Assembly (NCBI GenBank): GCA_903939515.1
Contig: CAJAHH010000018.1
Location: 1 to 33,732 of the forward strand
DNA from: an uncultured Verrucomicrobiota bacterium
GTDB taxonomy: Bacteria > Verrucomicrobiota > Verrucomicrobiia > Limisphaerales > UBA9464
Reading direction: 5' to 3'
Length of the DNA: 33,732 nucleotides
Part shown: positions 2,746 to 28,973 of the stretch, piece after piece
How positions within the stretch are numbered: position 1 is the stretch's first letter
Layout: each line of letters starts with the position of its first letter
Position numbers and translations under genes: made by a program
Notes under the pieces: generated by a model
The model's input: the letters and a program-made list of their open reading frames with translations, nothing else
Database searches by the model: none
Told to the model about the DNA's origin: nothing

Positions 2746-2857
2746 GCGGGAATGGTCCGCAGCGAGCCTTGGAGGCGAACAACAAATCCCCAAAAGCGCG
2801 AAGCGCGAAAGCTCCTCCTTCCTAGAGCCTACTCAGCGAGCGCAGGACCGTTCCCGC
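2746..2857 (+). repeat. Hairpin repeat, full copy 2
   Basis: 112 bp. The arms are GCGGGAATGGTCC (2746-2758) and GGACCGTTCCCGC (2845-2857), pairing at 12 of 13 positions plus one T.G wobble. The central motif is GCGCGAAGCGCG. GCGGAGC flanks both ends. Confidence 0.9.
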
Positions 2858-2943
2858 GGAGCCCATTGAAGGACATCAATATAGTATGCAGTGTCCCCTT
2901 TTGTGTAAATAGGTGGGACCGACCCCCAGGCGATTCGAGCGGA

Positions 2944-3055
2944 GTGAGAATGGTCCGCAGCGAGCCTTGGAGGCGAACAGCAAATCCCCAAAAGCGCGCA
3001 GCGCGAAAGCTCTTCCTCCTCAGAGCCTACTCAGCGAGCGCAGGACCGATGCCGC
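2944..3055 (+). repeat. Hairpin repeat, full copy 3 (decayed arms)
   Basis: 112 bp. The interior is well conserved, with GCGCGCAGCGCG at the centre. The arms GTGAGAATGGTCC (2944-2956) and GGACCGATGCCGC (3043-3055) have three mismatches, so this is the most decayed full-length stem of the family in the window. Confidence 0.85.
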
Positions 3056-3096
3056 GCAGCCCTGATACCGCGGAGCCCACCAAAAACCGTAGCGGA

Positions 3097-3208
3097 GCGG
3101 GAACGGTCCGCAGCGAGCCTTGGAGGCGAACAGCAAATCCCCAAAAGCGCGCAGCGCGAAAGCTCTTCCTCCTCAGAGCCTACTCAGCGAGCGGAGGACC
3201 ATTCCCGC
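3097..3208 (+). repeat. Hairpin repeat, full copy 4
   Basis: 112 bp. The arms GCGGGAACGGTCC (3097-3109) and GGACCATTCCCGC (3196-3208) pair at 12 of 13 positions with one C.A mismatch. The interior is almost the same as copy 3. It ends about 70 bp before the MFS gene start. Confidence 0.9.
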
Positions 3209-3280
3209 GAAGCATCAGCTTGCACAAGCACACCGCCGACCGTTGACTCCCCGCGCGCCTTTCCGGATCGGCGCGTCACT

Positions 3281-6070: not shown

Positions 6071-7492
6071 ATGTCCTCTCCCCAAAAAAACTCTCCACCG
6101 AATGCTGGCTCCTCCCGGCGCGAATTCCTAAAGCGAACAGCCGCAGCCGGCGGCATCGCTGGCATTCTCGCCAACCAACCCGCTGCAGGCGCCAACACCC
6201 TCACCAAGCTCGCTGCTCCCTACGCAGGCCGAGTCATCGGTGCCAATGACAAGATCGTCCTTGGTTTTGTGGGCGTCGGTGGTCAGGGCGGCGGGGCTCA
6301 TGTTGGCCAAAACCTCGAACACTATCAGGAAAACAACGTGGCTCTGGCCGCGGTCTGCGACATTTCCAAGCACCGCGTCGACGACCACGTCGCCAAGATC
6401 GAGAAGAAGACCCACGTCAAGCCCGACGGCTACGAAGACTTCCGCCGGCTCCTAGAACGCAAAGACATCGACGTGGTATTCTGCGCCACCGTCGACCACT
6501 GGCACACCAAGGTCAGCTGTGAGGCCATGGATGCCGGCAAGCATGTTTATGTCGAGAAACCGATGACCCGCTACCTCAGCGAAGCCTTCGAAATCTACGA
6601 CGCCTGCAAGCGCACGGGCAAACTGCTCCAAGTCGGTTCACAAGGCTGCTCCGACCGCAAGTGGCACAAGGCCGCCGAGTGGATCCGCGCAGGCAAAATC
6701 GGCCCCATCGTCATGAGCCAGGGTAGCTACATGCGCAACAATCCGCACGGCGAGTGGAACTACACCATCGCCCCGTGGGCCAAGCCTGAAGACATCAACT
6801 GGAAGATGTGGCTCGGCGAGCAAATCAAGACCGGCCACAGCTTCGACCCCGACCACTATTTCCGCTGGCGCAAGTATTACCCGTATTGCTCCGGCCTGTT
6901 GGGTGACTTGTTCCCCCACAAGCTGCACCCGTACATGCTCGCCACCGGCAATCCGGAGTTCCCCGTGCGTGTCGCCGCCGTTGGCAGCAAGGCCTTCAAG
7001 ACCGACCTGAATCAAGTGGGCCGCAAGCCCGAGCAGGCCACCCAATACGTCCGTGACGTCGAAGAAATCATCCAGCTCGTCGCCGAATTCCCCAGCGGCT
7101 ACGTGATGCACGTCACCTCGAGCTCGGTCAACGAAGTGGGCTCCTCCGAGATGATCCGCGGCCACAAGGCCACGCTCACCATGGGCGGCAACAAGGTTCA
7201 ATTGAACCCCGAACGCCCATTCGCCGAAGATATCGAGCCGGAGACCAGCGAAGCATTCCCCGGTGAGAGCGTCGCGGCCCACCACAAGAACTTCTACGAG
7301 TCTATCCGCGCCAACAAGCAGCCCAACGCCGGTATCGACCTGGCCACCAAGGTTCAGACCGTCATCTCGCTGGCCGAGATGTCCGACCGCTTGGGCGTCA
7401 TGTGTTACTTCGATGTCAAGAGCCGCAAGGTGACCGACAAGTCCGGCAAGGAAATCTCCCAGCTGACCTACGGCTGGGACAAGAACTCCTAA
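6071..7492 (+). CDS. Tat-exported Gfo/Idh/MocA-family oxidoreductase
   Basis: 473 aa. The N-terminus is a twin-arginine signal (SSRREFLKR, residues 14-22, then a weakly hydrophobic Ala/Gly stretch to ~40). A Rossmann NAD(P)-binding fold follows, with GFVGVGGQGGG at 65-75, and the family's EKP motif at 162-164 (HVYVEKPMTR). The C-terminal alpha/beta domain spans ~190-450. Family members oxidise, epimerise or otherwise process sugars and inositols; Tat-exported forms are abundant in PVC bacteria and Bacteroidota and some cleave glycosides by an NAD-dependent route. The substrate here is unknown. ATG 6071 places the RR motif correctly. A strong terminator follows immediately. Confidence 0.9.
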   Translation: MSSPQKNSPPNAGSSRREFLKRTAAAGGIAGILANQPAAGANTLTKLAAPYAGRVIGANDKIVLGFVGVGGQGGGAHVGQNLEHYQENNVALAAVCDISKHRVDDHVAKIEKKTHVKPDGYEDFRRLLERKDIDVVFCATVDHWHTKVSCEAMDAGKHVYVEKPMTRYLSEAFEIYDACKRTGKLLQVGSQGCSDRKWHKAAEWIRAGKIGPIVMSQGSYMRNNPHGEWNYTIAPWAKPEDINWKMWLGEQIKTGHSFDPDHYFRWRKYYPYCSGLLGDLFPHKLHPYMLATGNPEFPVRVAAVGSKAFKTDLNQVGRKPEQATQYVRDVEEIIQLVAEFPSGYVMHVTSSSVNEVGSSEMIRGHKATLTMGGNKVQLNPERPFAEDIEPETSEAFPGESVAAHHKNFYESIRANKQPNAGIDLATKVQTVISLAEMSDRLGVMCYFDVKSRKVTDKSGKEISQLTYGWDKNS

Positions 7493-7504
7493 ACGGTCTC
7501 GGTC

Positions 7505-7547
7505 ACGGCGGTCCTGCCCTCCAAGGCGGGACCGCCGTTTTTGTTTT
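7505..7547 (+). terminator. Rho-independent terminator after the Gfo/Idh/MocA gene
   Basis: The perfect 10-bp arms ACGGCGGTCC (7505-7514) and GGACCGCCGT (7529-7538) are extended inward by a T.G pair and GCC/GGC, and followed by TTTTTGTTTT. It lies 12 bp after the stop codon at 7492. Confidence 0.92.
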
Positions 7548-7577
7548 CCGAAACAGCTCCCCCCACTCGAGGCGGTA

Positions 7578-7686
7578 GCGGGACCGGGCTGGAGCGAGCA
7601 TTGAAGGCGATCACCACAATTCCACGCGCGTAGCGCGAAAGCCCCTCCTCCCCCGAGCCTTCCTGCGAGCGTAGGACCGGGCCCGC
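7578..7686 (+). repeat. Hairpin repeat, full copy 5 (divergent type B)
   Basis: 109 bp. The arms are GCGGGACCGGGCT (7578-7590) and GGACCGGGCCCGC (7674-7686), with two mismatches and one wobble. The interior differs from the others: GAGCGAGCATTGAAGG on the left, and CCCGAGCCTTCCTGCGAG rather than CTAGAGCCTACTCAGCGAG on the right. The centre is GCGCGTAGCGCG. Confidence 0.85.
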
Positions 7687-7706
7687 GGCCCAAAACGTAC
7701 AGCGGA

Positions 7707-7817
7707 GCGGGAACGGTCCGGAGCGAGCCTTGGAGGCGAACAGCAAATCCCCACCAGCGCGAAGCGCGAAAGCCCCTCCTCCCCCGAGCCTTCCTGCGAG
7801 TGTAGGACCCGGCCTGC
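7707..7817 (+). repeat. Hairpin repeat, full copy 6 (chimeric A/B)
   Basis: 111 bp. The left half matches type A (GCGGGAACGGTCC, GAGCGAGCCTTGGAGGCG), while the right half matches type B (CCCGAGCCTTCCTGCGAG, GGACCCGGCCTGC). The arms therefore pair poorly in the middle (three mismatches and one wobble of 13). It looks like a recombination product of copy 5-like and copy 7-like elements. Confidence 0.85.
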
Positions 7818-7837
7818 GGCCCAAAACGTACAGCGGA

Positions 7838-7949
7838 GCGGGAACGGTCCGGAGCGAGCCTTGGAGGCGAACAGCAAATCCCCACCAGCGCGAAGCGCGA
7901 AAGCTCTTCCTCCCTAGAGCCTACTCAGCGAGCGCAGGACCGTTCCCGC
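7838..7949 (+). repeat. Hairpin repeat, full copy 7
   Basis: 112 bp with perfect 13/13 arms, GCGGGAACGGTCC (7838-7850) and GGACCGTTCCCGC (7937-7949). Centre GCGCGAAGCGCG; GCGGAGC flanks both ends. Confidence 0.9.
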
Positions 7950-7974
7950 GGAGCCCCCAAATACGCCCAGCGGA

Positions 7975-8085
7975 GCGGGATCGGTCCGGAGCGAGCCTTG
8001 GAGGCGATCACCAAAATCCCTCGCGCAACGCGCGAAAGCCCAATACTCCCCCGAGCCTCCTCAGCGAGCGCAGGACCGATCCCGC
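7975..8085 (+). repeat. Hairpin repeat, full copy 8 (compensated arms)
   Basis: 111 bp. The arms GCGGGATCGGTCC (7975-7987) and GGACCGATCCCGC (8073-8085) pair perfectly even though both differ from the usual arm: A to T on the left is matched by T to A on the right. The interior is also distinct (GCGCAACGCGCG centre). Confidence 0.9.
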
Positions 8086-8143
8086 GGAGCGCCCCGTGTT
8101 CTTGGGATTGCCCGGCGCTGCTCAACCCGCTTGGCTTGCACTT

Positions 8144-9094
8144 ATGAGTTCCCGCTCCACCTCCGCCCGCCCGTTCTCCTGCGTCGCCCCAGACTGGTGG
8201 GATTACACCACCCTAGACTCCGAACTCGTCGCCGACGCCGCGGCCCTCACCCCGGAGAAAATGCAGCGCCTCTCACGCCCCGGATTCAAAGTCACCCTCT
8301 ACGACACCCTCGAAGAATTCTACCTCGCCGAAGCCCTCGAATACGTAGCGGCTTGGAAACAGAGCACCGACGACAACCCCGTCGGCATCTGCGGACCCAT
8401 CGGACCCACCGAGCAACTGCCACTCGTTGCCCGCATCATCAACGCCTTGGGCCTCGATATCCGCTCCGGCCACTTCTGGGGCATGGACGAATGGATCATC
8501 GACGGAAAAGAAGCGTCGGCCACACACCCCCTTTCCTTCGAAAAAGCCGACCGGGAACTCTGCTTCAACCGCATTGCCCGCAAGCAAGTGATGCCGGATG
8601 CGCACCTGCATTTCCCGAAAGCCGATACCCGAACCTACCGCGCCTCCTGGGACGCCGGCGTCCGCTGCGCCGTCATGCAAGGCGGCCAAGGCGACGTAAA
8701 ACATTGGGCTTTCAACGACCCCGTGCGCCGCTCCGGCAAATACCGCAATGCCCCGCCCACCCCGGAAGAGTACCTGAAGCTCGCCACCCGCGTGGTGGAC
8801 TTGCACCCACTGACTATCGCCCAGAACGCTCGAACCAGCGGAGGCGGTAATGTATCACTGGTGCCAACCCAGGCTATCACCGTTGGCCCAGTCGAAACGT
8901 GGAAAGCCGACACTGTCTCCATCTGGCATGCCGGTCAGCACGACAACCCCTTCGGACAACGACTCACCTGCCTCATGATCGCCAAAGGCATCGCCGATAC
9001 CGCCGTGCCAATGTCTCTCCTAGCCCTGCATCCCAACGTGCGCTTCAACTACTTCCGCGGAGGCATCGGGCGCTGCGCGATAGAAATGCATTGA
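8144..9094 (+). CDS. Glucosamine-6-phosphate deaminase-like (NagB/RpiA fold) protein
   Basis: 316 aa. [12 protein letters not shown] (81-92) is the phosphate-loop region and GMDEWI (113-118) matches the MDEY motif of NagB, whose Asp acts as acid/base. [11 protein letters not shown] (183-193) aligns with NagB's DGHIAFNEP, keeping the catalytic His (H187). The family turns glucosamine-6-P into fructose-6-P plus ammonia in the cytosol. Compared with NagB, the Asp two before the His is not kept in register and Glu in NEP is Asp, so the substrate may differ. ATG 8144 is chosen; upstream in-frame codons are translated repeats. It stands alone, downstream of four repeats. Confidence 0.75.
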
Positions 9095-9155
9095 ACTGGC
9101 ACCCTCCTATCAGCCGATCCGGCCAGCCCAAACCCCGCACAAAACCAATCACTCC

Positions 9156-9201
9156 AAAAAACAACCTGAGGCCGACGGAGTTCATCCATCGACCTCAGGT
9201 T
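9156..9201 (-). terminator. Rho-independent terminator of the hpnH-hpnJ operon
   Basis: The arms AACCTGAGG (9163-9171) and CCTCAGGTT (9193-9201) form a 9-bp stem with further inner pairing (CGA/TCG). In the minus sense the stem is followed by GTTTTTTGG (complement of the A run at 9156-9161). It lies 62 bp beyond the hpnJ stop. The plus side lacks a good T run, though it may still help stop the deaminase-like gene. Confidence 0.75.
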
Positions 9202-9263
9202 AATTGGTTGGAACAACTGACAAGACCACCCCAGGACCGTCAGCCTATTTTTGAGCGGCCCTA

Positions 9264-10715
9264 TTAGTGAGCGGCCAAGCTCTGAGACGCGGCCAAATCT
9301 ACCTTGCGCTGATTGAGACTGCGGAAGAACTCGTAGCCCTCGCGGCACCGGCGCACCATGACACTCTTGTCTTCTAGCATGGTCTTAATGATCCGCAGAA
9401 TCGGACCCGAACGCAGATAGTACCGCCGGTAGAAGCGATCCACCGACTCGAAGATCTCGTCCTTAGAAAGACCCGGATACTCCAGCGTGGACTGCTGAAA
9501 ACCATCGTCATGGACGATGTCGGTCTTGTCCTTCTTGGAGAACCACCCGTTCTGGCGAGCCATCTCGTAAAGTTCGGTCCCAGGATACGGGGCCGCCAGC
9601 GATACCTGCATCGAGAATACGTCGAGATCCTGAGCAAAGCGCATGGTCTGCTCAATGGTCTCCTGAGTCTCCACAGGCAGCCCGAGGATGAATGTACCGT
9701 GGATCACCACACCCACCCGATGGCAGGCCTTGGTGAAGCGACGCATCTCATCGGTGGTCACACCCTTCTTGATGCGCTTAAGGATATCGTCGTTGCCGGA
9801 CTCGTAGCCGACGAGGAAGAGGCGCAGACCGCAATCCTTGAAGAACCGGATGGTGTCTTCATCTAAGTTGGCCCGGCTGTTGCAACTCCAGGTCACTCCC
9901 AACGGAGCGAGCTTCTTGGCAATCTCGCGAGCCCGCGGCAGGTTGGCCGTGAAGGTATCGTCATCGAAGAAAAACTCCCGAACCTGCGGGAAGAGCTTCT
10001 TCATGTATGCCATCTCGGCAGCAACATTATCGGCCGACCGCACCCGATACTTATGGCCACCAATGGTCTGGGGCCACAGACAGAAGGTGCACTGAGCCGG
10101 GCAACCTCGCCCCGTGTACATCGAAATGTACGGGTGCATCAGGTAACCAATAAAATACTTCTCGATCTCCAAATCCCGCTTGTAGACATCGGCCACCCAG
10201 GGCAGCGCATCCATGTTGTGGATGAGTTCACGCTCCGGATTGTGGATGATCTTACCTTCCTTACGAAAGCTCAGCCCCGAGATGGATTCCATCGGGCGGT
10301 CTTCGCAGACCTCCTTGCACGTGAAGTCGAACTCCTTGCGACCCACCCAATCGATCGCCGGAGAAGCCTTCAGCGTCTCGGTTGGCAAGACAGCCGTATG
10401 CGCTCCGATGAATCCGATCTTTGTCTCCGGACTCTGGGCCTTAATGGCTTCGGCCACCTTGCAGTCGTTCTTCAGCGACGGAGTCGACGTGTTAATGATG
10501 ACATGGCTGAAGTCTTTGGCGATGCGCAGAGTCTCCTGGATCCCGATGTTATGGGGCGGACAATCGAGCAGGCGGGAGTTTGGCACCAGGGCGGCCGGTT
10601 GGGCCAACCAAGTCGGATACCAAAAAGAGGTCACCTCGCGACGGGCCTGGTAGCGGGCACCGGCACCGCCGTCGAAGCCGTCAAACGAGGGAGGAGACAA
10701 GAACAGGGCGGACAT
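9264..10715 (-). CDS. hpnJ: Hopanoid-associated radical SAM protein HpnJ (B12-binding type)
   Basis: 483 aa. The N-terminal ~130 residues form a cobalamin-binding-like Rossmann domain (MSALFLSPPSFDGFDGGAGARYQARRE..., DCPPHN). The radical-SAM 4Fe-4S motif is CPAQCTFC at 205-212 within GRGCPAQCTFCLWPQTIGGHKYR, which is very like HpnJ. In hopanoid producers HpnJ acts late, on the side chain, and is needed to form the cyclitol ether. The start is ATG 10715, giving the family length; codons further upstream overlap hpnH. It follows hpnH by 58 bp on the same strand, so the pair is almost certainly an operon. No HpnI or HpnK partner is in the window. Confidence 0.85.
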   Translation of the reverse strand: MSALFLSPPSFDGFDGGAGARYQARREVTSFWYPTWLAQPAALVPNSRLLDCPPHNIGIQETLRIAKDFSHVIINTSTPSLKNDCKVAEAIKAQSPETKIGFIGAHTAVLPTETLKASPAIDWVGRKEFDFTCKEVCEDRPMESISGLSFRKEGKIIHNPERELIHNMDALPWVADVYKRDLEIEKYFIGYLMHPYISMYTGRGCPAQCTFCLWPQTIGGHKYRVRSADNVAAEMAYMKKLFPQVREFFFDDDTFTANLPRAREIAKKLAPLGVTWSCNSRANLDEDTIRFFKDCGLRLFLVGYESGNDDILKRIKKGVTTDEMRRFTKACHRVGVVIHGTFILGLPVETQETIEQTMRFAQDLDVFSMQVSLAAPYPGTELYEMARQNGWFSKKDKTDIVHDDGFQQSTLEYPGLSKDEIFESVDRFYRRYYLRSGPILRIIKTMLEDKSVMVRRCREGYEFFRSLNQRKVDLAASQSLAAH

Positions 10716-10773
10716 GGAGATCAGTGATGAGTTGGAAAGCAGGAAACTCGGTGAGAGGAAGATCGCTCCGATC

Positions 10774-12234
10774 TTACTCCGACTTGACCTCGATTTTCTT
10801 GGCTGCGGCCATCTTGGCCTTGAGGTCGGCCAGCTGGTCGATCGCTGGCCCGGAAGCTCCGGTGGAGCACCCGCCCGAACCGCCGGAATCTTCGTGGGAG
10901 TGATCGTGTGGCAAGTCATTGCCGCCGCGGGCGTAGGCAGATTTCACACCAGCGAACTCACGGTTCACCGCCTCCTTGGCCTCAGCTAGGTGACCCTTGC
11001 CAATGGTCGCTCCATTGTAAGCCGAACGGGTCAACTCAGGGCTCGACGGGTAGGCCGGGGGCCGGGAACCAAAGTTGTACTTAAAGTTGACCCACGAATC
11101 CCTCGGTTTGCTGCTCAGAGCCCCCGACGGCTCAAAGCCCGAATGCATCATGCAGTTGTCGCAGCGGACATCGCGGCCACAACCCTTTTCATCCACGCCG
11201 AATCGGTCCCATTTCACCTCGGCCAACATCTGGGCATAGGTGGGGTAATGACCCTCGGTCATCACGTAGCAAGGAGCCTTCCACCCGCGGACATTATAGG
11301 TGGGCACAGCCCACGCACTGCAGGCCAACTCGCGTTTTCCGGCCAAGAATTCCAGATAACCCGGAGTCCCGAAGATCGTAAACATCTCACCCCAACGCTC
11401 GATGTCCTTGAACTTCTGGCGGGTCATCTCACGGGTGAGGAAGAACTGGGCTGGGTCTTTGCCCAGGCGCTTGACCATGTCCTTCTTGGCAGCGTCGTAG
11501 TCGTAGCCCGGTGAGATGGTGTGGCCATCCACGCCCAATGAGCTGAGAAACTTGAACATTTCTTCCAGTTCAGCGGCTTCAGTCTCCTTATAGACGGTGG
11601 TGTTGGTGGCGACCTGATAGCCCAAAATCTTGGCCATTTGCATGGCCGCCACGCACTCCTTGAAAACACCCTCGCGTTCGACGATGAGGTCGTGGGTGAA
11701 CTCCAAGCCATCGACATGGACATTCCAGTAATGCCACTTGCCGGGCCGGATCACCGTCTTGGACTTGGCAGTCGCATCAGCCTTGCGGATCGCTTCAGCC
11801 TCCTTTTCGGTCACCAATTTCTCAGTCAGCAACTGGGCCAACTGGGGTTCAAAGGTCGGCGTATAAACGCAGGCCAAGTACTCCCGCATTTTCTTCCGCA
11901 TGAAGACACCGTTGGTGCAAATGTACACCAGACGTCCCTGTCCCTGCAGACCTGCTACCAACTCCTCGATCTTGGGATAGATCAACGGCTCGCCGCCACA
12001 AATCGAAATCATGGGCGCATCGCATTCGTCCGCAGCTGCCAGACACTGTTCCAGCGGCACCAAGTCCTTCAGCGAAGTGGAATACTCCCGGATGCGACCA
12101 CAGCCCGTACAAGTTAGATTGCAGGTATGGAGCGGCTCCAACTGCAACACCATCGCGTACTTGGGTGTGCCTTTGAGCTTATGTTTAATGATGTGCCGGG
12201 CGATCTTGGCCGTCGGCGCGAGAGGAAAACGCAT
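10774..12234 (-). CDS. hpnH: Adenosyl-hopane-forming radical SAM protein HpnH, with extra segments
   Basis: 486 aa against ~340-390 in typical HpnH. The cluster motif is C38-NLT-C42-TG-C45. ICGGEPLIYPKI (77-88) is the SAM-binding GGEP motif, and CDNCMMHSGFEPSGAL near residues 370-385 matches the HpnH C-terminal CxNCM.H motif. HpnH joins a 5'-deoxyadenosyl group to diploptene, the first step of side-chain extension. Two parts are unusual: a charged insertion (~130-165, LLTEKLVTEKEAEAIRK) and a ~90-residue tail with HDHSHED (443-449) and a GGC. The start ATG 12234 lies 10 bp after the preceding lipoprotein stop. No squalene-hopene cyclase is visible in the window. Confidence 0.85.
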   Translation of the reverse strand: MRFPLAPTAKIARHIIKHKLKGTPKYAMVLQLEPLHTCNLTCTGCGRIREYSTSLKDLVPLEQCLAAADECDAPMISICGGEPLIYPKIEELVAGLQGQGRLVYICTNGVFMRKKMREYLACVYTPTFEPQLAQLLTEKLVTEKEAEAIRKADATAKSKTVIRPGKWHYWNVHVDGLEFTHDLIVEREGVFKECVAAMQMAKILGYQVATNTTVYKETEAAELEEMFKFLSSLGVDGHTISPGYDYDAAKKDMVKRLGKDPAQFFLTREMTRQKFKDIERWGEMFTIFGTPGYLEFLAGKRELACSAWAVPTYNVRGWKAPCYVMTEGHYPTYAQMLAEVKWDRFGVDEKGCGRDVRCDNCMMHSGFEPSGALSSKPRDSWVNFKYNFGSRPPAYPSSPELTRSAYNGATIGKGHLAEAKEAVNREFAGVKSAYARGGNDLPHDHSHEDSGGSGGCSTGASGPAIDQLADLKAKMAAAKKIEVKSE

Positions 12235-22497: not shown

Positions 22498-23388
22498 GTG
22501 TCCGACACGACAACCACCCAGGCCTGTGCCGCTCCGACGGTTTCCCGACGGTCGCGGGGGGCTTGGCAACCGTTCACCGGGAATGGGGTGTCCCGCTTTG
22601 CCGATGCGAGCGGCAGCCGTGCCCTCGGATTCCTTGGAGGTTTCGCTCTCACCTCAGCCCTGGTGCTGGGCTGGGCATTGCACACCACCTGGTGGCCCGT
22701 CGTGGACCAAGCCGTGCGAGAGTTTCCAGAAAACGGTCCAGCCCTGATTCAGGGTCGATTCAATTGGCCGGAAACAGCACCGCGGTTGCTGGCCGATTCG
22801 CCCCATCTCGGTGTGGCTGTCCGCCCCAGCAACTTAGATCCGCTCGGTCGAACAGCCGATCTTCAACTCGAACTCCTTCCGGAAACCCTGAGACTGGCCG
22901 GAATCGCTGGATTCGTGGACCTACCATGGCCACCGACGGCGACCCTGCCGCTCGGTCGTCTCCAGGCTCAGGCTGCATGGGAGGCCTGGAGGCGGCCCGC
23001 TTTGGCCGCTCTCATCGTCACAGCAGCGACGGCCATGACGGTGATCTGGAGCCTGTTGGCCCTCACTTTGGCGCTACCACTGCGAATCGCCGCCTTCCTG
23101 TTGCAGAAGCAGATCACCCTCGGTGGATGTTGGCGCCTGAGCGCCGCGGCCAGCATGAGCGGGTCGCTGGTTCTCAATCTGGGACTCGGTGGTTATGTGA
23201 TGCGGTGGTTGTCCTGGCCTGCTCTGGCCGCCGTGGTCGTGATCCACCTGCTGGTCAACGGGCTGTTCGTCAGCTGGGGACTCGTCAGTCGTCCCAAGAA
23301 AAACCGTGCAGCATCGGCACCCAACCCCTTCCACCCGAAGGATGCAAAGTTGGGTTCTCGAAAGTCCGGACGTAATCCGTTTGGATGA
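22498..23388 (+). CDS. Multi-pass membrane protein of unknown function
   Basis: 296 aa from GTG 22498. Four hydrophobic segments lie at about 43-65, 165-200, 213-235 and 238-262. A ~95-residue polar loop between the first and second is probably periplasmic. The C-tail is short and basic (RPKKNRAASAPNPF...SRKSGRNPFG). No motif of a known family was recognised. It is divergent from the DUF1080 gene (114 bp between starts) and convergent with the LRR gene. The unbroken frame and membrane pattern support it being real. Confidence 0.6.
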   Translation: MSDTTTTQACAAPTVSRRSRGAWQPFTGNGVSRFADASGSRALGFLGGFALTSALVLGWALHTTWWPVVDQAVREFPENGPALIQGRFNWPETAPRLLADSPHLGVAVRPSNLDPLGRTADLQLELLPETLRLAGIAGFVDLPWPPTATLPLGRLQAQAAWEAWRRPALAALIVTAATAMTVIWSLLALTLALPLRIAAFLLQKQITLGGCWRLSAAASMSGSLVLNLGLGGYVMRWLSWPALAAVVVIHLLVNGLFVSWGLVSRPKKNRAASAPNPFHPKDAKLGSRKSGRNPFG

Positions 23389-23433: not shown

Positions 23434-24324
23434 TCAGCGGGCGGGCGGATTGATTCGCGCTCCCTTGGCCTTGAGTTCTTCGAGCTGGGCCTTGGACTGC
23501 TTAGACAGCGGATTGCCATCGAGGTAGACCCGAACGAACGGGGCAAAGTTCCGGGTCTTCTCCAGATCGGGGGTCATCCATCGGCTCAGGGGAGCCAAGT
23601 CTCGAATGCGATTGTGGGACAACTGCAAGAAAGACGGAGCACGGATGCCGGACAACGGCGCCAGATCGCTAATACCGTTATGGGAGGCCGAGAGAAGTGT
23701 CAGATTGCGGAAGGCTCCGAAACCCTCGATCGAGCGGATCTTGTTGTGATCAATATACAAAGTCGCCACACGAGGCAGATTCGTCAGCAGTGCCACCGAG
23801 CCGAGCCGGTTGGCCGACAAGTAAATCGAGGCAAGGTTGGTCAGACCGGACAAGGGCTTCACGTCCTTCACTCGATTGTGAGAGAGCTCGATGTATTGCA
23901 GGGCCGGCACTGAGGCCAGAGGGGCAATCACCGAGACCTGATTGGAAGCCAAGTTGAGATACTGAAGCTGCTTTAGTCCGGCCAGGGGCACGAGATCAAT
24001 GATCTGGTTGCCCGGGATCTCCAGCGAAGCCAAAGCCACGCAATGCTCCAGACCCGCCAAGCTAGTGATGCCCGAGAAGGGTGCGGACACGGTGGACACC
24101 GTGGCCACATCGGCCGCCGTCAATGGATCCTGAGATTCGCGCTTGGCGAAGACCTGCCGACGCACCGCTGCTTCAAGCTTCTTGTCCTTAAAGACGGAGA
24201 CCGGTGCGTTGGTGGCCGCGGGCTTCTCAGCAGGCTTGGGCGCAGGTTCTGCCGCGCTCATCGGCACCGAAGCCAACAGCAACACCGATGCACACAGGGA
24301 GGAGAGGGTAGCTCGCTTGTTCAT
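23434..24324 (-). CDS. Exported leucine-rich-repeat protein
   Basis: 296 aa. The signal peptide (MNKRATLSSLCASVLLLASVPMSAA) is followed by a Pro/Ala-rich linker (EPAPKPAEKPAATNAP), a short helix with VRRQVFAKRES, then ~8 repeats of ~22 residues from about 80 to 270 of the form L..L..L..L.LS.N.I.D..PLSGL, as in internalin-type LRRs (SDS22-like). Such folds bind other proteins, so it may be a periplasmic or surface adaptor. It lies 141 bp downstream of the mlaD-type gene on the same strand; that gap suggests its own promoter, but readthrough is possible. Confidence 0.8.
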   Translation of the reverse strand: MNKRATLSSLCASVLLLASVPMSAAEPAPKPAEKPAATNAPVSVFKDKKLEAAVRRQVFAKRESQDPLTAADVATVSTVSAPFSGITSLAGLEHCVALASLEIPGNQIIDLVPLAGLKQLQYLNLASNQVSVIAPLASVPALQYIELSHNRVKDVKPLSGLTNLASIYLSANRLGSVALLTNLPRVATLYIDHNKIRSIEGFGAFRNLTLLSASHNGISDLAPLSGIRAPSFLQLSHNRIRDLAPLSRWMTPDLEKTRNFAPFVRVYLDGNPLSKQSKAQLEELKAKGARINPPAR

Positions 24325-24465: not shown

Positions 24466-25614
24466 TCAGCGCTTCGAGGAAGTGTTGGTCTTGAAGGCGC
24501 CACGAAAGAGCCAGTGCCGCTTAAGCCCACCCAAAAAGTCGGAGGAGTTGGTGAGGACGCCCTCGACCGCCGGCAGGGTGTTTGAGCGAACCGTTCCCAG
24601 GGTCCGCTCAACCTCAACCAGTGTTCCCGGCAAGGTGGTATTGAGATTGGAGACCAACGGCCCCACCCCTTGGATCTGCTGGTTCAGCTGCGTAACCAGT
24701 GGCGGGACGGTGCGGCCCAGATCGGTGAGCAGCGGTGGCAGCGTGGTGTTGAGGTTGGTCAGGAGCGGAGGCACCGTGGAGTCGAGGTTCGAGACGAGCG
24801 AACCAATGCCCCCGATCTGAGCGTTCAAATTGGTCAGAGTCATCGTCAGCGCCGAATTGAGATTGCTCGGGATCAGGATCTCCCCAAGTCCGCCGGGTCG
24901 GTCGAAGCGGGCCGACAAGTTAGTGGGGAAGAGCAAGTCGCCCAAGCCACCGGGCTTGGTGAAGGCTTCTCGAATCCGCGGTACTAGCAGAGTGAGTTCA
25001 CCGATGAGATCTCCCGTGACCTCGGTGCGTATAAAGTAACCCTTGGCGTCCTCGGCAACAGGATCATAGCGGATGAAGTTCGTGACGTCCGATCGGCCTA
25101 AATTGTAGGCGTACTTGTCCCACAGGACACCCAAGGCTCCCCCGCCGGTGGCATTGGTGGACGGGGCCGTGGTGGCGATGCCAAGGCCCTGGCTGCGGGT
25201 TATCTCCAGGAAGTTTCCTCCGGCGATGTCGATGGGCAGGCCACTGACCTTGAGCTTGGAATCGGTGAAAATGTACCCGTGGTAGGGGTCCCGCACCAGG
25301 AACCGAACAAACACGTTGAAACCCTCGCTTCGGTGCCAGGAATCATCCGGGGCCGTGTCGATCTTGACCACCTCGCCGATGGTGAAACCCAGCATCTTCA
25401 CCGGAGTACCCACTTTCACCGAACTGCCGTCTCGAAGGTAGGTGTAGTAGGGCACCTGACGAACCCACCACCCACGTTTGTCACCCGTGGTCTTGATGAA
25501 GAATCCCAAGCCGAGGAGTCCCACGAGTACCGCGCCCACCAGAAAGAGCACCACGACCCATTCCACCCTTCGAAGGCGGGTCCGAAGTTGAGGAGTCAAA
25601 TCCTGCAGGGCCAT
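24466..25614 (-). CDS. MlaD-type MCE domain protein with 11-residue repeats
   Basis: 382 aa. It has a cytoplasmic N-tail, one membrane helix (~19-41), an MCE domain (~52-140, SVKVGTPVKMLGFTIGEVVKI ... LPIDIAGGNFLEI) and a long C-terminal region. From ~262 to 330 there are near-perfect 11-residue repeats (LVSNLDSTVPP, LLTNLNTTLPP, LLTDLGRTVPP). KRHWLFRGAF near the end is an MCE-family ending. MCE proteins form rings that carry lipids across the periplasm. The gene starts 2 bp after the ATPase stop, so it is the membrane-spanning partner of the MlaE/MlaF-type pair. Confidence 0.85.
   Translation of the reverse strand: MALQDLTPQLRTRLRRVEWVVVLFLVGAVLVGLLGLGFFIKTTGDKRGWWVRQVPYYTYLRDGSSVKVGTPVKMLGFTIGEVVKIDTAPDDSWHRSEGFNVFVRFLVRDPYHGYIFTDSKLKVSGLPIDIAGGNFLEITRSQGLGIATTAPSTNATGGGALGVLWDKYAYNLGRSDVTNFIRYDPVAEDAKGYFIRTEVTGDLIGELTLLVPRIREAFTKPGGLGDLLFPTNLSARFDRPGGLGEILIPSNLNSALTMTLTNLNAQIGGIGSLVSNLDSTVPPLLTNLNTTLPPLLTDLGRTVPPLVTQLNQQIQGVGPLVSNLNTTLPGTLVEVERTLGTVRSNTLPAVEGVLTNSSDFLGGLKRHWLFRGAFKTNTSSKR
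24625..24831 (-). repeat. 11-codon tandem repeats in the MCE gene
   Basis: Residues ~262-330 repeat with a period of 11 (33 nt): L-[VL]-[ST]-[NDQ]-L-x-x-T-[VL]-P-P. At least four units are clear and two are degenerate. The pattern suits a long amphipathic helix or beta needle beyond the MCE ring. Confidence 0.75.
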
Positions 25615-25616
25615 AG

Positions 25617-26408
25617 TCAGGGACGGGGTTTAGTGAGATCGCGGAAACCCTCTTCACCTGTGGCGGCAAGAACGGCTTCGATGTTGGAAAGGATGCGCCA
25701 ATGGCCGCTGGCGACCAGCGCGAAGCGCGGGTCCAGACCGACGTACGGGCGCACCGCATCCGCCGTTGCGACGATGGTCAAGGGTTGGCCACCGAGCAAG
25801 GGATGCCCGGCCAGAGCCTCCGCCAGAAATCCGCGCCACCAATGCAAATGAACGGCGTCCAGACCCGCCAGTGGGTTGTCGAGCAGGAGGAGGCTCGGCT
25901 CCAACACCAGGCTTCGGGCCAGCGCGACCCGGCGCGACCAAGACCGACTCAAGGAGGCGGGTTTCCGAGAGAGGATCGATTCCAACTGGAGGTAACCAAT
26001 CAACGGCTCAAATTCGCTGAGGGCCTCGGTAGGGGAGCGGTTCTGGTGATAACACCACGGGAGGAGGATGTTTTCTGCCACGCTCAGGGCTGAGAACAGT
26101 CGCCCGCTCCCATCGAAGACCAAACCCAAACGACGACGGGTCTCCCGCAATCCCGCGTCGTCCTCTCCGGAGGCATCGACGCGGCGACCAAACACGCGAA
26201 CCTCGCCCGCCGCCGCCGGAATTAATCCGGCCAAGGTCTCCAAAAGCGCGGTCTTACCGGCACCCTGCGCGCCGGCCACCACCCAAAGTTCACCCGTGTC
26301 TACCGTCCAGTCCACCGCCTGAAGCGAGACCCCACCCATTGAGGTCGAACTAGCGATCCCCAGCGATCGGGTCTCCAGCGCAGGGGTGGTGGATGGAGGT
26401 GTCCTCAC
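25617..26408 (-). CDS. MlaF-type ABC ATPase with degenerate catalytic motifs
   Basis: 263 aa. The start GTG 26408 overlaps the permease stop (GTGA). Walker A GAQGAGKT (46-53) is intact. The other motifs depart from the family: the Q-loop VFQ is VFD (D99); the signature LSGGM/Q is LSRSW (153-157); Walker B is LLLLDNP, so the catalytic Glu is Asn (N178); and the H-loop His is Ala (TAD, A216). RRVALARSLVLEPSLLLLD still clearly places it next to MlaF. It should drive lipid movement with the MlaE-type permease. With these changes it probably binds ATP but hydrolyses it poorly or in another way (inference). Longer upstream frame overlaps the permease. Confidence 0.8.
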   Translation of the reverse strand: MRTPPSTTPALETRSLGIASSTSMGGVSLQAVDWTVDTGELWVVAGAQGAGKTALLETLAGLIPAAAGEVRVFGRRVDASGEDDAGLRETRRRLGLVFDGSGRLFSALSVAENILLPWCYHQNRSPTEALSEFEPLIGYLQLESILSRKPASLSRSWSRRVALARSLVLEPSLLLLDNPLAGLDAVHLHWWRGFLAEALAGHPLLGGQPLTIVATADAVRPYVGLDPRFALVASGHWRILSNIEAVLAATGEEGFRDLTKPRP

Positions 26409-27244
26409 AGGAGCAAGTACACGGTGATAAACAGGGCGTCGATCATCAGGCATCCCACCACGCAAACGGCCACCGTCCGCGTCGTCGCCGGGCCCACTTC
26501 CTCCAAGGTCATCGGACGGGCCAGTCCCTGATAGCAAATCACCCAGCCGGTGAGAGCCCCGAACAGTAACGTCTTGAGGACCCAGAGTGGAAAATCCAGA
26601 GCACTCATGGCACTAGCGATCTGGGTGAAGAACTCGATCGGAGACGCTTTCAATCCGCGGGCATAAGCAAAGAGATAGCCCGACCCCAGCGCTATCAGGA
26701 TGAGGTAGGCACTGAGTGATACCACCGCCACCGCGAATCCGATCACCCGGGGCACCACCAAATAATGGATCGGGTCGATACCCAGGGCTTCGAGGGCTTC
26801 CACCTCACCTAGTGCCCGGGCCGTGCCCAATTCAACCACCGACGCCGTACCCACTCGGGCCAGTACCAGGAGGCCAGCGATCATTGGGACCATTTCCCTC
26901 ACGAACACCGTGACAATGAATGTTCCAGTGAAGTTCCCGGCCCCAAATTGCTCCATCAGCGAGACGGTCTGCCCCACGAAAACCACACCTAGAATCACTC
27001 CAAGAAAACTAATGATGGGCAGGAGGCGTACTCCGCATCGATGGATTTCGCCCAGCACCTGCGGGCGCATCACCTCGGAATTATCCCGATGACGCCGAGC
27101 CGCCGTCGCCAGCGTAATGAGGATAAAGGCACCCAGACGGGTCAGGCTGCGCCACTCGCCAAGCAAGGCACCCAGCCACCCCAACCCTCCACCGGAATCC
27201 TCGCCGGCAACGGCATTTCTGAGAGGGGGTGGGGTCGCCTCCAT
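26405..27244 (-). CDS. MlaE-type ABC lipid-transport permease
   Basis: 279 aa with five to six membrane segments. The family core REMVPMIAGLLVLARVGTASVVELGTARALGEVEALEALGIDPIHYLVVPRVIG (~130-185) is clear. It forms the inner-membrane channel of a Mla/MCE lipid transporter between outer- and inner-membrane leaflets. It starts 14 bp after the epsI stop and overlaps the ATPase start by 4 bp. An extra N-terminal ~40 residues precede the first helix. Confidence 0.88.
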   Translation of the reverse strand: MEATPPPLRNAVAGEDSGGGLGWLGALLGEWRSLTRLGAFILITLATAARRHRDNSEVMRPQVLGEIHRCGVRLLPIISFLGVILGVVFVGQTVSLMEQFGAGNFTGTFIVTVFVREMVPMIAGLLVLARVGTASVVELGTARALGEVEALEALGIDPIHYLVVPRVIGFAVAVVSLSAYLILIALGSGYLFAYARGLKASPIEFFTQIASAMSALDFPLWVLKTLLFGALTGWVICYQGLARPMTLEEVGPATTRTVAVCVVGCLMIDALFITVYLLL

Positions 27245-27258
27245 GTGTGTCGGCGGGA

Positions 27259-28002
27259 TCAGCGGCTGGCCGTCTGCGGTTCGCGCTCAATGGACGGCAC
27301 AGCCGCTCCGATCAGCCGCGACATGCGCTCGAAAGTGAGGTCTTCATCCCCCGGATCGCTGAGCGAGAAAAAGGAGATGTAGGCCCAGCGCGGACTGCGC
27401 CCCTTGGAAAGAATGTCCTGGACCATCTGCCATTGGCGGGCTGAGTGGCTGGCCGTGCGGATTCCGTCGGCCACGAACCAAAACACATAGACCCCATTGA
27501 TGGTCACTCGACGGCCGTCATCACGCTCGACCGAACGGGTCATGTCAAAGCGCTGCACCTCAAGGCTTCCGGGAGCCCATCCAGGGACTTCGATGCGTCG
27601 GACGGTCTGTGAGAGAATCTGCCACCCGACGCCGGTCATGCAGTACTCGGGCCGATGAATGCTGGTCCGATCGGCACCCATCAGCACCACGCTTGCCGAA
27701 ATAGAGGGGATGGAGGCTCCACCATGATAGGACCTTCGCCCAAAGGTCGTGTCCGGCGGCAAGAAACTCAGCTCTAGGTCGGGAATGGCATCCATCTGGG
27801 ACCGGTAACCCGGCAACGAGGCCGGAAGGGACACCGAATTGGAGGTAGCCAAACCACCCGACTCGCTCAGCAATGGAAGACCCACAATCCGCACACCGGG
27901 TTCACCCATGCGCACACGTTCTTTGAGCCATCGCAGGGAACCGGCGGCCGCAACCATGAGGGTTAGGGCCGTAATCGTAATGACAGCAATGCGCGGGTTC
28001 AT
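27259..28002 (-). CDS. EpsI-family exosortase-associated protein
   Basis: 247 aa. One N-terminal membrane helix (~5-23) precedes an EpsI-like periplasmic domain with the characteristic HRPEYCMTGVGW (116-127, H116 and C121), then YVFWFVADG and the C-terminal helix. EpsI proteins go with exosortases, often in exopolysaccharide loci; the exact job is not settled. The start overlaps the exosortase stop as ATGA, and the mlaE-type gene follows 14 bp after its own stop, so it physically links the two systems. Confidence 0.8.
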   Translation of the reverse strand: MNPRIAVITITALTLMVAAAGSLRWLKERVRMGEPGVRIVGLPLLSESGGLATSNSVSLPASLPGYRSQMDAIPDLELSFLPPDTTFGRRSYHGGASIPSISASVVLMGADRTSIHRPEYCMTGVGWQILSQTVRRIEVPGWAPGSLEVQRFDMTRSVERDDGRRVTINGVYVFWFVADGIRTASHSARQWQMVQDILSKGRSPRWAYISFFSLSDPGDEDLTFERMSRLIGAAVPSIEREPQTASR

Positions 28003-28973
28003 GGCTGGGCGGTGCCGGAGTGGGTGCCTTCAGCGGAGACTAGGGTGGATGAACTGGAGGTCGGTTCAGGTTCGCGCAGCCATCGGGCCACCAAGAACAC
28101 ACAACTCAATGCGATGAGGAAGGTCGCAAAACCGAACTTAGTCTCAACGGCCTCACCCGCGGCTTGCCCTGCGGCCTCGGCCACAGCGAACACCACAATG
28201 AGCCGGATGACATTGGCCAACACCGCAAAACCGGGGCTGAGCAGGATGAGAAAAATTCGACGCCAGGCGGACCGGAAATTCAGGAAGGCGAAGGTGACGG
28301 TTAACAGCAGCACCACCGTGGCGCTGCGGATGCCGCTGCAGGCCGGGGCGACATCGAAGCGGAATCCCTGCACGGTGGCCGAAGCCTTCTGTAAAACAAT
28401 GGTTCCCGCCCGCTCCAGCTTCATGTTCAGAACCCATTCACAGAACGTCGTCGAGAGGACGGTGCTCAGGAGCCGCAATCCGTGGGTGAGCGTGTCGAGG
28501 AAGACGGAGATCGGCACGCAGAAGAAGAACAGCAAGTAGGGAAAGGCGAAGGCGCGCATCCAAGCCCGGCCCCAGTACATCCCCATGATCCCGAAGAGCC
28601 CTACCAGAAAACCCACCACCCCGAGGCGTGTCTGCTGGACCACATAGCCCGAAAGGTGCAGCAGCAGTCCAAGGGGAACCAGCGCCAGCGCCGGAGCCCA
28701 AGGTTCCTTCGGAATGGCGGTCAATTCGGTCCGACGCATCACGACGATGGCTCCCACCAACCAGGGAATCATCAGGCCCAATTCATCATCGCGCCCCTGC
28801 TTAGCTCCCCCCTCATAAACCGCCTGCAGCCAACCGAACATCGATTCGGTCTGGATGTAGCCCAGGGTAGAGTTGCCCAAGAAGTGGAAGAGCGCGAACC
28901 ACGCCGCAACGACCAACCCAAAGGCTGCCTTATGAGGCAGGCTATCCCACAGCGATCGCAATTCTTGAAGCAT
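27999..28973 (-). CDS. Exosortase-family membrane protein, unusual active site
   Basis: 324 aa from ATG 28973 (an in-frame TTG lies 12 bp upstream). About eight membrane helices. The exosortase motif APACSGIRS carries the catalytic Cys (C212), and FAVLANVIRL carries the conserved Arg (R257). Where exosortases usually have a His about 20 residues later (F-H-D-x-x-G-W-x-x-F), this protein reads AVETKFGFATF, with Glu near 277 and no His nearby. Exosortases cleave and process PEP-CTERM-type tails at the inner membrane. No target with a clear tail is in the window. First gene of the exosortase-epsI-mlaEFD-like operon. Confidence 0.82.
   Translation of the reverse strand: MLQELRSLWDSLPHKAAFGLVVAAWFALFHFLGNSTLGYIQTESMFGWLQAVYEGGAKQGRDDELGLMIPWLVGAIVVMRRTELTAIPKEPWAPALALVPLGLLLHLSGYVVQQTRLGVVGFLVGLFGIMGMYWGRAWMRAFAFPYLLFFFCVPISVFLDTLTHGLRLLSTVLSTTFCEWVLNMKLERAGTIVLQKASATVQGFRFDVAPACSGIRSATVVLLLTVTFAFLNFRSAWRRIFLILLSPGFAVLANVIRLIVVFAVAEAAGQAAGEAVETKFGFATFLIALSCVFLVARWLREPEPTSSSSTLVSAEGTHSGTAQP

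Follow-up and report, generated by a model that had tools for sequence, protein, structure and literature searches.

Five tightly packed genes on the minus strand of a 33,732-nucleotide stretch of DNA from an uncultured Verrucomicrobiota bacterium (contig CAJAHH010000018.1, positions 1 to 33,732; the whole stretch is referred to as the window), xrt-epsI-mlaE-mlaF-mlaD (24466-28973), probably represent two separately conserved envelope modules in one apparent transcription unit, the second being an MCE transporter with a pseudo-ATPase as MlaF, in which lipids would be moved without ATP hydrolysis by this subunit. As judged from the sequences, the first module would be an exopolysaccharide-type exosortase/EpsI pair that departed from a sugar-transferase locus, and the second an MCE lipid transporter, with MlaE as permease and MlaD as tunnel protein, from a lineage that is spread within Verrucomicrobiota and whose MlaF may now have become a pseudo-ATPase.

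MlaF of the window (25617-26408, minus strand; GTG start; Pfam ABC_tran, 2.2e-22) kept the Walker A lysine (K52) and the Walker B aspartate (D177) of an ATP-binding cassette (ABC) protein, while the Q-loop glutamine was replaced by D99, the LSGG signature by LSRSW (residues 153-157; canonical LSGGM), the catalytic glutamate by N178, and the switch histidine, in the aligned column, by D217. The AlphaFold2 model of the protein (mean predicted local distance difference test, pLDDT, 90.5) had E. coli MlaF (6xbd) as its top PDB match with a template modelling score of 0.77, indicating a predicted ABC fold close to MlaF. Four elements (Q-loop Gln, SGG, catalytic Glu, and switch His) were then scored in sets of loci that overlapped, several named loci being the same contigs as loci of the genus and order sets, and the counts are not additive. 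None of the four was kept in the window protein or in any of the 18 rows from its genus; canonical Mla paralogs from the genus and its family kept all four in 9/9. The MlaE search retained 80 named loci of 148 relatives, 3 of which were dropped from scoring because the contig was truncated or the motifs contained N: of these order loci, 69/77 kept no element and 8/77 kept one. In the order set of 18 loci, none was kept in 15 and one in 3, after exclusion of a row with three elements (L074_100) that belonged to another ABC gene, a canonical one, at the locus edge, and among 20 further class and order loci, mlaF was found in 18, of which 16 kept none, 1 kept one, and 1 kept two. At the former catalytic-Glu position of the named loci (L100-L179), Asn was found in 58/80, in addition to D, E, K, Q, S, R, T, and A; this site appears relaxed, yet not free, since Asn dominates. 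A Trp followed the former signature in 58/80 named rows. As far as the open-access literature reaches, an MCE transporter with a degenerate ATPase is what is new here, and the genus-level operon is secondary.

The same lineage of permeases was found well beyond the genus. Using a profile of MlaE (26405-27244, minus strand; PF02405, 4.9e-49), 84 matches at E <= 1e-50 were obtained in 385 genomes of the class: 70 in the order and 14 elsewhere in the class. Among the order genomes listed, an MlaE ortholog was present in 70/83, and 13 were without a match. In 387 genomes of the phylum, 29 matches were obtained at 1e-45; the 27 that lay outside the class scored 157-188 bits, and 17 of these 27 genomes were fetched. 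An MlaF-like gene adjoined mlaE in 17/17 (36-65 bits), with mlaD detected in 13; Walker A and LSGG were both absent in 17/17, and the canonical controls were positive in 9/9. These MlaF-like proteins had conserved blocks of their own, and ABC_tran was listed for 7 of the 8 scanned (above the cut-off in 2); the model of one of them (L255; pLDDT 93.4) showed an ABC fold and matched E. coli MlaF (6xgy) best among PDB entries. In two genomes of one genus (g80 of family f45; G092 and G067), mlaD directly followed mlaE, leaving no room for mlaF. Their best MlaF-profile scores (124 and 130 bits) were at the level of an ordinary ABC ATPase (the ortholog in the related G087 scored 295), and the MlaE coupling segment was changed in one genome, while that of the other lacked 10 residues. 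In an MlaE tree without an outgroup (midpoint-rooted, long branches flagged by the program), a node at 100/99 separated the canonical paralogs from the entire lineage, a second one at 100/99 united all rows from beyond the class, and g80 grouped with its family at 94/84.

The gene block shares with E. coli MlaFEDB and with Veillonella parvula MlaEFD (the latter in PMC10665443) the order mlaE-mlaF-mlaD, an MlaE permease, an MCE-domain MlaD with a long C-terminal part, and the MlaF fold, and its lack of mlaB is a further likeness to the minimal MlaEFD system. No MlaA, MlaB, or MlaC was found within the gene block, the rest of the genome not being searched for them. In MlaD (24466-25614, minus strand; PF02470, 9.5e-08, above the cut-off), the C-terminal region is long, contains LTNLN-PPLL segments as repeats, and closes with a conserved GLKRHWLFRGAF-type sequence. 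Grasekamp et al. (PMC10665443) describe a long MlaD as widespread, in Planctomycetes-Verrucomicrobia-Chlamydiae (PVC) bacteria without a beta-barrel, and consider MlaEFD the ancestral core, in line with a tunnel anchored in the inner membrane. On the other hand, MlaF of the window differs from that of known Mla systems in being without the ATP-hydrolysis residues, one such change in E. coli blocking complementation (PMC7367683, available part). The Mla transporter of E. coli and Acinetobacter is reported to require ATP hydrolysis, the direction of phospholipid movement being disputed (PMC6365058 and PMC7367683, in the parts available): neither K47A nor E170Q of E. coli MlaF complemented (PMC7367683), and K55L in A. 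baumannii was dominant negative (PMC6365058). The failure of K47A and E170Q was counted in favour of the following proposal. We propose, because both halves of the composite site were lost in one chain and because the loss was graded among relatives, that the MlaE dimer and MlaD may form a bridge on which phospholipids would cross between the membranes without ATP hydrolysis by MlaF, either following a gradient or drawing on another source of energy, while MlaF would serve as a clamp that supports the structure or as a gate that senses nucleotide. In the order, MlaF probably still binds ATP, since the Walker motifs are conserved, and docks on MlaE.

Several results weigh against this proposal. 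In the named loci, the Walker A Lys was kept in 74/77 and the Walker B Asp in 77/77, arguing that in the order ATP is bound and perhaps slowly hydrolysed. Single elements were also retained there: Glu in 5/77, Gln in 2/77, and His in 1/77 (SGG in 0/77), and the MlaF of one class locus (L214) is the one with two elements. Outside the class, the Walker B Asp was kept in two rows and was otherwise mostly Glu, a mild change, and one row (L265) kept TH at the switch. The coupling-helix segment of MlaE, which was intact in the window (RALGEVEALEALGIDPIHYLVVPR; named via alignment with canonical MlaE, not from a structure), was strongly conserved wherever mlaF was present, and MlaF therefore appears still to matter. 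The loss of mlaF in g80 was seen in two draft genomes only, with a more divergent MlaE (276 and 214 bits), and, because of the rooting and long branches of the MlaE tree, a single origin of MlaF decay is indistinguishable from multiple origins. In addition, E170Q cut the ATPase activity of E. coli MlaFEDB by ~80%, not to zero (PMC7784689, available part). A working, slow, or rewired ATPase, in which Mg-ATP binds at Walker A and B while Asn178, Arg and Trp at the former signature, and GRLF after the Q-loop build a non-canonical catalytic site, would account for the retained Walker residues, for the conserved coupling segment, and for the replacement residues being conserved themselves (the Asn and Trp of 58/80 named rows each). 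Nevertheless, we consider it unlikely, since the four elements for hydrolysis and for the sandwich of nucleotide-binding domains (NBDs) were lost together, Walker A was gone in all 17 loci fetched from outside the class, and g80 was without the gene.

The two modules are joined in a single genus. In the window, the exosortase gene (27999-28973) and epsI (27259-28002) overlap by 4 bp (ATGA), a gap of 14 bp separates epsI from mlaE, the GTG start of mlaF overlaps the mlaE stop by 4 bp (GTGA), and 2 bp lie between mlaF and mlaD. This packing had been described in the earlier note, and coordinates, Pfam assignments, and genus-wide gaps agreed with it. We searched 39 genomes, including that of the window (G000; 4.7 Mb in 160 contigs): 19 from the genus (G000-G018) and 20 relatives in the order outside it. 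The xrt-epsI-mlaE genes were seen as a single block in 17/19 genus genomes; in one of the others (G002), the block coincides with contig ends, and the other (G005, an 80% complete genome) was without both modules. Gaps were measured in 17 other genus loci from 16 genomes (2 of 19 loci were cut): the xrt-epsI overlap was 4 bp in 17/17, the epsI-mlaE gap 11-18 bp in 17/17, the mlaE-mlaF spacing -4 in 13 and +6 in 4, and the mlaF-mlaD gap 2-67 bp. Because this spacing recurs across the measurable loci, the block is not due to chance, and a chimeric assembly as its source was ruled out by its recurrence in 17 genomes. The dN/dS values (nonsynonymous to synonymous substitution rates) within the genus were 0.15-0.28 for mlaF and 0.06-0.21 for the other four genes (3/25 comparisons saturated), which indicates purifying selection on each of the five genes there. 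The xrt-epsI-mlaE-mlaF-mlaD block is, as a modest observation, a real, conserved and tight gene block of one genus, probably an operon in which exosortase and EpsI are expressed together with mlaEFD.

Outside the genus, both modules were present in 13/20 relatives and were on different contigs in 13/13; the exosortase only was found in 2/20 and mlaE only in 5/20. No fetched locus outside the genus had mlaE after epsI, and adjacency was 0/13 in the relatives with both modules. Among the named loci, mlaF was 3' of mlaE in 80/80 and mlaD was detected in 74/80, while xrt-epsI was upstream of mlaE in 11/80, the 11 closest to the window; one locus (L124) begins inside mlaE and 8 others begin <1.7 kb upstream of it. 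Beyond the three genes and shadow open reading frames (ORFs), no cluster of conserved neighbours of mlaEFD exceeded 5 of 18 other-genus loci. The conservation of gene order expected in the earlier note was thus found in more than this genome, but not across Verrucomicrobiota, and an order- or phylum-wide xrt-epsI-mlaEFD system was ruled out, adjacency having been seen in a single genus. A single pathway, in which exosortase and EpsI would act with the MCE transporter in one process such as the movement of a lipid-linked sugar or of a lipid that serves as anchor for sorted proteins, would be consistent with the contiguity in the genus, with an epsI-mlaE gap that is kept despite changing flanks, and with the joint absence of both modules from the incomplete G005. 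We regard it as distinctly unlikely, since the adjacency is confined to one genus, is lacking in all 13 outside relatives with both modules, and the modules also occur singly.

The exosortase of the window (minus strand; ATG start, 324 amino acids; PF09721 Exosortase_EpsH, 4e-31) belongs to the EpsH family and is followed on the same strand by its DUF3485 partner EpsI (Pfam DUF3485/EpsI, 1.1e-11). Cys212 and Arg257 were kept, and the active-site His was replaced by Glu277; the odd active sites noticed earlier in the exosortase and the ATPase (in the latter, the lost signature, catalytic Glu, and switch His) were therefore real. Cys and Arg were invariant in 19/19 aligned exosortase rows, and the dN/dS of the exosortase within the genus (0.06-0.15) indicated strong constraint. 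Among the NCBIfam exosortase types, the broad signature TIGR04178 alone reached the cut-off for the window protein, and in a search for related solved structures the best match had only E 0.24. In the ortholog tree (31 rows including the window; cut or duplicate rows excluded and one fused xrt-epsI row, L049, shortened), Glu was found in 20 and His in 11, and two changes were needed for this label. The Glu-type rows comprised 14 from the genus and 6 from four genomes outside it (G019, G020, G023, and G025); because of the latter, the His-to-Glu change would most simply predate the move of the exosortase beside mlaEFD. In other genera, a polyprenyl-phosphate sugar transferase-like gene followed xrt-epsI in 13/16 loci and a UDP-sugar epimerase/decarboxylase-like gene was nearby in 9/16, both being named from sequence motifs. 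The sugar transferase was kept in 19/19 genus genomes, on contigs other than that of xrt in 18/18 with xrt (draft assemblies). Since xrt-epsI usually heads a sugar-transferase locus outside the genus, the pair most likely moved from an exopolysaccharide locus to mlaEFD in the ancestor of the genus.

Exopolysaccharide loci are the usual home of EpsH/EpsI (PMC1569441), and the pair studied here resembles that described in the available part of this source in having an EpsH-type membrane protein followed by EpsI, with sugar-transferase genes alongside in most other genera. It differs in that the His of Cys-Arg-His, three residues given there as absolutely conserved among the EpsH proteins then known, is Glu, and in that the pair sits 5' of an mla operon. 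The genome of the window had 2 exosortases, 3 MCE proteins, and 3 MlaE permeases at the thresholds used; the second exosortase has Cys, Arg, and His, and 11 PEP-CTERM matches were above the cut-off, which 2/14 control genomes also reached. Two further arrangements were observed outside the genus. In G023 (L047; C111, 30314-49210), two exosortase-EpsI pairs, both of the Glu type, are in tandem at 7001-10421, with genes resembling a sugar transferase and a UDP-sugar decarboxylase after them, and in G019 (L049; C189, 19022-33930), exosortase and EpsI share one open frame of 584 amino acids at 9179-10930, apparently a natural fusion. The co-occurrence of the variant exosortase with the variant ATPase, raised in the earlier note as a point to check, did not hold: five genomes of the order had the variant ATPase but not this exosortase, and others had it together with a His-keeping exosortase. 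The two odd active sites vary independently and are traits of separate modules.

LetAB and PqiABC (for the components of the latter, PMC10897342) are MCE systems without an ABC ATPase and resemble the mlaF-less g80 locus in having an MCE protein and no dedicated ABC ATPase. These two systems, however, employ PqiA or LetA, not an MlaE permease. ABC transporters with one degenerate site (ABCB2/B3, ABCC7, and ABCG5/G8; PMC7756269, in part) share with the window MlaF the loss of the signature, catalytic Glu, and H-loop residue, but keep one canonical site, whereas here the sole ATPase gene of the operon bears all the losses and an MlaF homodimer would have both nucleotide sites degenerate. By analogy with these heterodimeric exporters, the degenerate MlaF may pair with a canonical MlaF that is encoded in either of the genome's two other Mla operons; the three MlaE permeases and three MCE proteins, with canonical MlaF paralogs present, speak for this. 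We consider this pairing very unlikely: the known pairs, as described in that source, spread their deviations over both NBDs and leave one composite site whole, while in MlaF both site halves were lost in one chain, and neither a homodimer nor a pair with a canonical MlaF would contain a complete (consensus) composite site. Rescue via a canonical partner was rejected on this ground. It is exceedingly improbable that both modules are decaying, functionless genes, a pseudogene reading that would fit the catalytic residues lost in both and was ruled out by open frames, by dN/dS values that within the genus lay well under 1 in each of the five genes, and by retention of the MlaE ortholog in most listed order genomes (70/83).

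A gene for a leucine-rich repeat (LRR) protein with a signal-like N-terminus (internalin-like; 23434-24324, minus strand) lies 141 bp 3' of mlaD as a non-core neighbour. It was beside mlaD in closer species of the genus only (not found there in L042-L045), and is therefore not a core member. Together with panB, it leaves the flanks of the block in more distant genus species; both were ruled out as core members, and the suggestion that the exported LRR protein is an accessory was not upheld, as it is outside the conserved unit. On the plus strand, positions 22498-23388 encode a hydrophobic protein of 296 amino acids for which neither Pfam nor NCBIfam gave a match at E 0.1; it is conserved next to the LRR gene in the closer species of the genus. 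Elsewhere in the window, repeated peptide-like strings (AYSASxGPFPR among them) occur at several ORF starts (102-1457, 2752-3246, and 7730-9094), which suggests that this genome has a family of interspersed DNA repeats.

In the open-access literature, neither degenerate MCE ATPases nor a Glu-type exosortase nor an xrt-epsI-mlaEFD operon was found to be described (subscription papers and preprints were not covered). The idea of an undescribed envelope system accordingly stands for the transporter with a degenerate ATPase, and less so for the coupling itself. In the wider view, to which we give slightly under an even chance, part of Verrucomicrobiota would have an ATP-independent MCE lipid bridge, passive or otherwise energised, that was wired in one genus to an altered exosortase/EpsI pair as a joint envelope-export operon. 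If true, the lineage would be a natural experiment, in which MlaE and the MCE protein were kept across the order and beyond while the ATPase decayed, and its graded natural variants (loss of catalysis, elsewhere of nucleotide binding, and in g80 of the gene) would make ATP-independent MlaE-MCE transport testable.

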